From assembly GCA_021820645.1 (NCBI GenBank), contig JAKADJ010000003.1, positions 1 to 34,627 of the forward strand: 34,627 bases of DNA, given 5' to 3'. Below, one piece after another: positions 7,923 through 9,577 of this stretch (its first letter is position 1; each line of letters opens with the position of its first letter). The notes below the pieces were generated by a model. That model made no database searches, was not told the origin of the DNA, and worked only from the letters and a program-made list of their open reading frames with translations. Source of the DNA: Bacillota bacterium (lineage in GTDB: Bacteria; Bacillota_E; Sulfobacillia; Sulfobacillales; Sulfobacillaceae). A program made the position numbers and the translations under genes.

Positions 7923-8345
7923 ATGGCGTTCGGTTCCTTAGAGATGGTCGTAATATGGACCCTTACCGGCATAAGCATTGGGTTTATGGCGACCGCCTAT
8001 GGTGCGTGCCGGAGTCAATGGCGCATTTGGCCGGGATTGCGTGAAGTCCTAGACTGGTTCTTTTTTATTGTGGTAGCCATTCTCTATTTGTTGATGCTCT
8101 TGTGGTCGGATTGGGGTGTCTTAAAGATCTGGAGCATCGTCGGAGTCCTGGTTGGATATGGATTATGGGCGTGGCTTGCCGCGCCCTTTGTTTTTGGTGT
8201 GTTGTCGTTTGTCGCGCATGTGCAAGCTCGCGCTGTCTATTACGTGACCCTACCGGTAAGACAGTTATCGCGGCGCGTGGCAAAACCGTTAGGAACTGGA
8301 TTTCTTTCTTGGCTCAATCGAAAAAATCCCCCCTCTAATCAGTAG
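7923..8345 (+). CDS. yabQ: spore cortex biosynthesis protein YabQ
   Basis: The protein has 140 residues with four to five hydrophobic helices, beginning with a helix of the form MVVIWTLTGISIGFMATAYGACR and a paired LDWFFFIVVAILYLLMLLW. YabQ is a membrane protein made in the mother cell and needed for spore cortex formation. Order, size and topology match the family. GGGG of the yabP end provides a ribosome-binding site before ATG 7923. The stop codon overlaps the -35 element of the next promoter. Confidence 0.87.
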   Translation: MAFGSLEMVVIWTLTGISIGFMATAYGACRSQWRIWPGLREVLDWFFFIVVAILYLLMLLWSDWGVLKIWSIVGVLVGYGLWAWLAAPFVFGVLSFVAHVQARAVYYVTLPVRQLSRRVAKPLGTGFLSWLNRKNPPSNQ

Positions 8346-8371
8346 CCAACGCGCTCGGCATCTCTTATAAT
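8343..8371 (+). promoter_or_regulatory. sigma-A-type promoter ahead of the HTH-divIC pair
   Basis: A perfect TATAAT at 8366-8371 is preceded, at 17 bases, by TAGCCA (8343-8348), which matches four of six -35 bases. The -35 begins on the yabQ stop codon. The -10 runs straight into the 11-bp repeat array, so occupancy of the array should affect this promoter. Confidence 0.55.
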
Positions 8372-8435
8372 GTAAAAGCTATGTAGTTGTTTTGTAGTTG
8401 ATTTGTACACATCTTGTACACAACCTGTGGATAAC
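8370..8435 (+). repeat. six-unit 11-bp iteron array (TGT in register)
   Basis: TGT occurs at 8371, 8382, 8393, 8404, 8415 and 8426, each exactly 11 bases apart. In the first five it is followed by A. Units 2 and 3 share TGTAGTTG, and units 4 and 5 share TTGTACACA. The sixth contains TGTGGATAA, a perfect inverse DnaA box. The array spans from the -10 element to nine bases before the start of a small HTH gene. One helical turn per unit places every TGT on nearly the same face of the DNA. This looks like a cooperative operator, plausibly for the HTH protein encoded next to it. Confidence 0.6.
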
Positions 8436-8444
8436 TGGTGATAC

Positions 8445-8681
8445 ATGCAAATTGAAATTCGTGGGCTTGAGAAGTTGTCATTTCGAGAGCGACAAGTAGT
8501 GGCGTTAAAAGAGACCGGGGTCAACAACGATACGGTGGCCAAACGCCTTGGGTTATCTCCGGCTACGGTTGCAACACTATACAATCGTGCCAAAACCAAA
8601 GGGTACCAAGTGGTTTTGGTAATTTCAGGCGATCCGCTCGGCGTGCTCGCGGATCCGGACGAAGGAGAAGACGACGCATGA
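8445..8681 (+). CDS. small sigma-70 region 4/LuxR-type HTH protein
   Basis: The protein has 78 residues. LSFRERQVVALKETGV followed by NDTVAKRLGLSPATVATLYN is a classic tri-helical HTH of the GerE/sigma-region-4 type (residues 11-48). After it come a short beta-like KGYQVVLVISG and an acidic tail (DPDEGEDDA). There is no receiver or sensor domain. Start ATG 8445 is preceded by GGTGAT, the 3' part of a Shine-Dalgarno sequence. Its TGA overlaps the ATG of the DivIC-like gene (ATGA), so the two are translationally coupled. In B. subtilis yabQ is followed directly by divIC, so this is an extra gene in a conserved block. The role is unknown; autoregulation through the 11-bp array is my inference. 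Confidence 0.75.
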   Translation: MQIEIRGLEKLSFRERQVVALKETGVNNDTVAKRLGLSPATVATLYNRAKTKGYQVVLVISGDPLGVLADPDEGEDDA

Positions 8682-8947
8682 TTCAAGGAAAGCGGGTCAG
8701 AATAAGATGGGCGCGTCTTGTCATGATCGGCATTGCGCTATACTCGGCCACGTGGATTGGGATTTCCCTAACGCATATGGTGGTGTTGTGGCATGATGAG
8801 CAGCACTGGAATCATCAGATTGCGGTGGTGCAGGGCGAGCAGAATCAATTGCGGTCCGATATACGGGAATTACGTAATCCCAAAATCCTCAGTAAGATGA
8901 TTCAGGGAACCGCGCCGATTCCCAATCCGGTTGTCACGACGCCATAA
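8678..8947 (+). CDS. divIC: DivIC/FtsB-like septum formation initiator
   Basis: The protein has 89 residues: a short basic cytoplasmic end, one transmembrane helix (about 14-34), then a coiled-coil with an Asn-rich heptad (about 40-66), as in DivIC/FtsB/FtsL-type division proteins that bridge the divisome with FtsL. A conserved N-x-x-L turn appears as RELRNPKILSKMI. The position after yabQ and before yabR is that of divIC in B. subtilis. It starts inside the stop codon of the HTH gene. Sequence identity in this family is low, so the call rests on architecture and context together. Confidence 0.8.
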   Translation: MIQGKRVRIRWARLVMIGIALYSATWIGISLTHMVVLWHDEQHWNHQIAVVQGEQNQLRSDIRELRNPKILSKMIQGTAPIPNPVVTTP

Positions 8948-8985: not shown

Positions 8986-9015
8986 TTGACAGCGGTTTCA
9001 CGGCGGTCATATAAT
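8986..9015 (+). promoter_or_regulatory. consensus sigma-A promoter for the S1-domain gene
   Basis: TTGACA (8986-8991) and TATAAT (9010-9015) are both perfect, with an 18-base spacer. This is the strongest promoter in the window and should drive the S1 protein and probably the tRNA-Leu behind it. Confidence 0.88.
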
Positions 9016-9059: not shown

Positions 9060-9470
9060 ATGTCGTCTGAAGTAGAAGTAGGGCAAATTTTAGAAGGAAC
9101 CGTCAGCGGTATTGCGCACTTCGGTGCTTTTATCGTGCTACCAAATGGTAAGACGGGATTAGTTCATATTTCCGAAGTTGCCGATGCCTATGTAAAAGAC
9201 ATCAAGGAATTTCTGAAAGAGAACGATCATGTTAAGGTGAAAGTGTTGTCGATGGATGACAAGGGGAAAGTAGCCTTATCCATTCGGCAAGCGCAACCTA
9301 AGGCACCCTCAACGCGGGATACCCATCGAGATCGGGACCGTGATCGACGAGGACAAAACACTTCACCAGCATCATTTGAAGATAAGATGCAACGCTTTAT
9401 GCGGGACAGTGAAGATCGCTTGCAAGATTTGAAGCGTAACACCGAGTCCAAGCGTGGAGGCCGGGGCTGA
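9060..9470 (+). CDS. yabR: S1-domain RNA-binding protein (YabR-like)
   Basis: The protein has 136 residues. Residues 5-75 form an S1/OB fold: VGQILEGTVSGIAHFGAFIVLPNGKTGLVHISEV, then VKVKVLSMDDKGKVALSIR. A highly charged tail follows (RDTHRDRDRDRRGQN, later a Lys/Arg/Asp helix). The family includes B. subtilis YabR and general stress protein 13 and is thought to bind RNA or ribosomes. Start ATG 9060 lies 14 bases after GGAGG (9041-9045), a long spacing, but no closer in-frame start exists. It is driven by the consensus promoter at 8986-9015. The position between divIC and a tRNA gene is conserved. Confidence 0.9.
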   Translation: MSSEVEVGQILEGTVSGIAHFGAFIVLPNGKTGLVHISEVADAYVKDIKEFLKENDHVKVKVLSMDDKGKVALSIRQAQPKAPSTRDTHRDRDRDRRGQNTSPASFEDKMQRFMRDSEDRLQDLKRNTESKRGGRG

Positions 9471-9490: not shown

Positions 9491-9577
9491 GCCGGGATGG
9501 CGGAATAGGCAGACGCAGAGGACTTAAAATCCTCCGGCCGAGAGGTCGTACCGGTTCGAGTCCGGTTCCCGGCACCA
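9491..9577 (+). tRNA. tRNA-Leu (anticodon UAA)
   Basis: An 87-base class II tRNA: acceptor GCCGGGA pairs with TCCCGGC, discriminator A, and CCA encoded at 9575-9577. The anticodon arm GAGGA-CTTAAAA-TCCTC reads TAA, so it decodes UUA and wobbles to UUG. A long variable arm (GGCCGAGAGGTC region) and GGTTCGAGTCC T-arm fit leucine. It begins 20 bases after the S1 gene and ends nine bases before a terminator, so it is probably made from the S1-gene transcript. Confidence 0.96.

Follow-up and report, generated by a model that had tools for sequence, protein, structure and literature searches.

A register-locked 11-bp repeat array ahead of a small HTH gene coupled to divIC, a probable operator in Firmicutes

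The repeat array and the genes around it

The stretch of DNA analyzed here (34,627 nucleotides, hereafter the window) carries a row of short repeats directly ahead of a small helix-turn-helix (HTH) gene, and the question that this locus raises is what binds these repeats and to what effect. TGT starts on the plus strand at 8371, 8382, 8393, 8404, 8415 and 8426, in exact 11-bp steps, with A directly following in the first five units; a further TGT, at 8388, is out of register. The preliminary description of the locus had reported the six steps and the five A residues, and direct reading of the window confirmed its coordinates. The array of six units (8371..8436, plus strand) stretches from the -10 box over the leader to the ribosome-binding region, and eight bases separate its end from the HTH start codon at 8445. 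When the interval of 102 bp was shuffled with its dinucleotides kept, six in-phase TGT did not arise at a period of 11 (20,000 shuffles) or at any period from 8 to 14 (5,000 shuffles). Both strands of the window were scanned for other strict 11-bp runs of at least three TGT, and none was found.

The candidate σA promoter, TAGCCA-17-TATAAT (8343..8371, plus strand), agrees with the consensus at 10 of 12 positions. At -35, TAGCCA (8343) is a poor match, and promoter-like matches between 7600 and 9600 are at chance level (3 versus 2.8 in shuffles). The first TGT does overlap TATAAT (8366-8371), as had been described, with one base in common. Upstream lies a yabQ-like gene (7923..8345, plus strand), whose product scores 28.9 bits with Pfam Spore_YabQ (cut-off 27) and is also above the cut-off of NCBIfam TIGR02893. 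Further along the window, a promoter that matches the consensus at 12 of 12 positions is found at 8986-9015, ahead of an S1-domain gene (9060-9470), after which there is a tRNA-Leu (taa) gene at 9491-9577.

The HTH gene (8445..8681, plus strand) encodes a stand-alone protein of 78 amino acids, for which Pfam, a family alignment and AlphaFold2 predict a strand-HTH-strand arrangement with an acidic tail. The fold is predicted to be of the GerE/sigma-4 type named in the preliminary description: PF08281 (sigma region 4; 28.2 bits, cut-off 25.7) and PF00196 (GerE; 28.1 bits, cut-off 23.5) both match above their curated cut-offs, and both are found at E <= 0.001 in all 35 members of family alignment A1. 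Among the NCBIfam models listed, the protein passed the cut-off of none. The AlphaFold2 model, made with 44 sequences, places strands at residues 2-6 and 55-59 and helices at 13-22, 28-35 and 39-52, with a mean pLDDT of 84.4 and low confidence for residues 74-78. Two other assignments were considered and rejected: a complete σ factor, since HTH models alone match the protein and no sigma region 2 is present, and membership by sequence in the BldC family, since no MerR model was among the 20 Pfam families matched at E up to 1.

Alignment of 35 diverse members revealed 25 invariant columns. The recognition region is nearly invariant in the family, as is the TGT core of the arrays. A single-sequence search returned 1163 homologues and an alignment search 2331 proteins, a set that may take in other HTH proteins. 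Each search listed 120 of its matches; names among the homologues include Sulfobacillus, Thermaerobacter, Desulforudis, Desulfofundulus, Neomoorella thermoacetica, Desulfotruncus and Formimonas, as well as members of the Symbiobacteriaceae and Syntrophomonadaceae. In a sample of the phylum, 280 of 398 genomes had an HTH match at E 0.001, and 154 of the 398 had one at 1e-20 or below (hand count). The family is unnamed and strongly conserved, from Sulfobacillus to Neomoorella, Desulfotruncus and the Syntrophomonadaceae.

The HTH gene shares the sequence ATGA with the gene that follows (8678..8947, plus strand), an overlap that the preliminary description had pointed out. The product of the latter is a divergent DivIC-like membrane protein. 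Pfam DivIC (PF04977) has no match in it, and of the 22 downstream proteins scanned with this model it is the sole exception. A model built from distant DivIC relatives alone matches it with an E of 2.6e-6 and a profile-profile probability of 97.9%; of the 27 downstream proteins in the group, 26 are recovered (L030 is missed). By profile, then, the protein qualifies as a DivIC homologue. The proposed link between the HTH gene and divIC is conserved, a DivIC-like gene being next downstream in 88 of 92 loci; yabQ is upstream in 69 of the 92. In the open-access literature, to which our search was confined, no paper on the HTH-divIC pair was found among the results listed.

Occurrence of the array with and without the HTH gene

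Regions upstream of the HTH gene were read in 55 of 61 relatives with the gene, at 80 named loci and at 88 + 19 loci from the phylum, these last picked from the best HTH matches. Sets of 92 and 84 loci, with duplicates removed, make up 176 non-redundant loci that have the HTH gene. An array was scored when at least three TGT stood in an 11-bp register no more than 120 bp before the start codon; a single gap was tolerated. Loss of the array where the HTH gene is kept had been named in advance as evidence against the switch first proposed, in which the HTH protein binds the array and shuts its own promoter; the register proved to be kept in 153 of the 176 loci, in 131 of them without any gap, and in a further set an array was present within 150 bp in 18 of 19 loci. 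Within the family of the window, TGT occupies the last three register positions in all 29 loci and the next three positions upstream in 25, 23 and 19 of them. Two TGT are 11 bp apart 255 times in the 92 loci, versus 6.0 in shuffles, and distances of 10 and 12 occur just 6 and 2 times. When the searched interval was shifted, arrays were found in 153 of 173 loci at -150 to 0, in 2 of 173 at -450 to -300 and in 0 of 174 at +100 to +250.

Eight of the 92 loci and 15 of the 84 do not reach three TGT in a row of units in these 120 bp. Among these 23, the arrays of L247 and L250, of four units apiece, lie more than 120 bp upstream, and no array was found within 150 bp of the HTH gene at L236, L237 and L271. 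At L198, seven TTGGG(A/G)TAA units, in exact 11-bp steps and with no TGT, replace the usual array between 122 and 56 bases upstream of the HTH gene. Five loci in the family of the window (L016, L020, L022, L023 and L027) have an extra TGTGGATA ahead of the -10 box, between -35 and -10, which is out of the array register by half a turn.

Forty genomes without a strong HTH match were used as a control; 20 of these had no match and 19 had weak matches, and the remaining one, G060, belongs to the class of the window. DivIC was present in 39 of the 40, and 30 divIC loci were examined. A run of three was found at none of the 30, G060 included, and the distance of 11 occurred twice in them versus a background of 2.4; in a stretch of equal length at loci with the HTH gene, the array was present in 75 of 85. 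The control genomes come mostly from families other than those of the genomes with the HTH gene, so that phylogeny is not separated from the presence of the HTH gene in this control. G060, within the window's class, has neither the HTH gene nor the array. In the genomes compared, the presence of the array follows that of the HTH gene. Its register, its wide conservation and the operon coupling of the HTH gene to divIC can be read directly from these loci.

A TGTNCACA-N3-TGTNCACA pair occurs in 41 of the 61 relatives, with one copy in each. Thirty-nine copies adjoin the HTH gene; another, in G023, is at the end of a contig, where no HTH gene could be seen, and the 41st, in G043, lies about 1.1 kb before a DnaA domain IV match. 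One copy per genome, nearly always beside the HTH gene, fits an autoregulator with a single target. In G043, a TGTCCACA-N3-TGTCCACA pair is located near the start of dnaA (C22:39643-39661), and the HTH gene of this genome (L055) has a poor array.

Candidate binders of the array

We consider it probable that the array serves the HTH-divIC operon as its operator and is bound mainly by the HTH protein, which sets the levels of HTH and DivIC. Each 11-bp unit, with its core TGTNNANA, would take one HTH monomer; the monomers would follow one another head to tail along a single DNA face, and the row would cover the -10 box and the leader. A filled array would block the promoter, and the HTH protein and the coupled DivIC would thereby be held at a set level. 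The identity of the binder, the head-to-tail cooperativity, the repression and the effect on septation are what we infer in this proposal. The occurrence of array, HTH gene and divIC together in distant Firmicutes points to an old switch for a septum protein.

Two other explanations can be weighed against the distribution described above. The array might be bound by a third regulator, with the HTH gene a conserved passenger of the operon. Direct repeats of 11 bp are also typical of some response regulators, and a looser triple pattern matched TTAAGA repeats elsewhere in G001, G012 and G019, which we take to be Pho-box-like sites; however, the array is found beside the HTH gene and hardly elsewhere, and it is missing where the HTH gene is missing, which makes such a regulator improbable. 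The repeats might instead act in the RNA as an element of the transcript leader, since those of the window follow the -10 box and would form part of the transcript. The 11-bp step, however, persists across many families while the sequences of the units vary, as expected of helical phasing in DNA, and we regard a role in RNA as very improbable.

The sites nearest to the gene raise a different alternative, in which DnaA binds the array together with the HTH protein or in its place. DnaA would assemble on the gene-proximal triplet, which would either stand by itself or overlap the HTH sites, and the operon would read out DnaA. In the window, two TTGTACACA sites (8403..8411 and 8414..8422, plus strand) resemble the DnaA box except for G in place of A at position 3, by comparison with boxes near dnaA, and they are followed at 8426..8434 by the exact DnaA-box sequence TTATCCACA on the minus strand (TGTGGATAA on the plus strand). 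The segment 8403-8434 is thus a forward-forward-reverse triplet (TTGTACACA, TTGTACACA, reverse TTATCCACA) of two near boxes and one exact box. According to excerpts of one paper, TTATCCACA is a high-affinity DnaA box in B. subtilis and TTGTCCACA is one in Streptomyces and M. tuberculosis (PMC4285127). One or more exact copies of TTATNCACA, counting both strands, occur in 109 of the 176 loci (58 of 92 and 51 of 84) and in none of the 30 divIC loci that lack the HTH gene. The 3'-most array site is TGTGGATAA in 75 of the 153 loci with an array, and the two sites that precede it read TTGTNCACA, the nearer one in 52 and the further one in 71 of them. Triplets of the same orientation are also found in the origin regions of L062, L078, L080 and L312, which favors a role for DnaA, as does the TGTCCACA pair of G043. 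In five near-complete genomes the locus is 176-235 kb from dnaA, or 5.2-7.1% of the contig. DnaA-like boxes in the arrays are spaced by 11 (55 pairs) or 12 (71 pairs), and those of origins by 12 (10 of the 11 pairs no more than 12 apart); since the 12-bp pairs of the arrays are forward-to-reverse, spacing tells arrays from origin boxes for forward pairs only.

Several observations stand against DnaA as the general binder. Array sites further upstream are mostly unlike DnaA boxes in the 153 loci, and a TTRTNCACA box is absent from 35 of the 176. Four genomes (G431, G252, G369 and G411) have arrays of the TGTAGAA/TGTACAA type without boxes but ordinary TTATCCACA around dnaA, and such box-free arrays argue against general binding by DnaA. 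TTGTACACA, the main unit of the window, accounts for one of 73 boxes in 30 dnaA regions, versus 34 of 73 for TTATCCACA, and the array is missing where the HTH gene is missing. We therefore rate binding by DnaA as possible, though on the unlikely side; as the gene-proximal sites do read as DnaA boxes, it is a real rival or partner of the HTH protein. The switch bound by the HTH protein, as first proposed, gains from the conservation of the array where the HTH gene is kept, but the proposal had missed the DnaA-box reading of these sites. A combined reading is still more tentative, and we think it unlikely: the HTH protein and DnaA would compete for one origin-like triplet per genome, near the origin, and the state of replication initiation would set the supply of DivIC, an arrangement that much of the Firmicutes would have retained.

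Another conserved group of DnaA-box-like sites (TATCCACA..TTTTTCACA...TTATCCCCA) was observed in 28 of the 61 relatives, all in the family of the window (28 of 34). In L096 it is at about 1670-1740 (G026:C61:38681), with like places in relatives, and is flanked by an 83-aa ORF bearing CxxC and a 503-aa ORF that is amidohydrolase-like by eye. G042, with a listed contamination of 7%, has two DnaA domain IV matches (C32:3912-4118 and C48:15953-16156), one of them about 27 kb from the HTH locus.

Comparison with known systems

A nearly invariant HTH family is kept with divIC and a register-locked array across many families of Firmicutes. If the proposed operator reading is right, the locus would be a compact and testable example of how the amount of a septum protein is set in the cell, would show how an HTH monomer without a sensor reads an array of direct repeats, and would perhaps link DnaA to division. 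The nearest studied behavior is that of BldC of Streptomyces, a protein with another type of HTH. As described in excerpts of one paper, which also mentions response regulators that bind direct repeats, BldC is an HTH-only protein of 68 residues that binds direct repeats of varying number, its copies arranged head to tail along a single face of the helix, and controls development (PMC5859096). The likeness is that of a very small HTH-only protein with an array of direct repeats, and the repeat architecture would fit a putative head-to-tail oligomer. BldC has a MerR-like winged HTH, whereas the protein of the window matches sigma-4/GerE models, and the array of the latter is found essentially at its own operon only. 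GerE of B. subtilis is a stand-alone LuxR-type HTH protein; the family described here has additional strands at its N and C termini, together with an acidic tail, and, unlike GerE, sits with divIC and has a putative repeat operator of its own. With DnaA-box clusters, both at oriC and at regulatory sites outside it, the array shares exact or near boxes, a location toward the origin and the forward-forward-reverse triplet. It differs from them in having forward boxes 11 bp apart with G at position 3, in upstream units that are unlike DnaA boxes, and in array types that are box-free.
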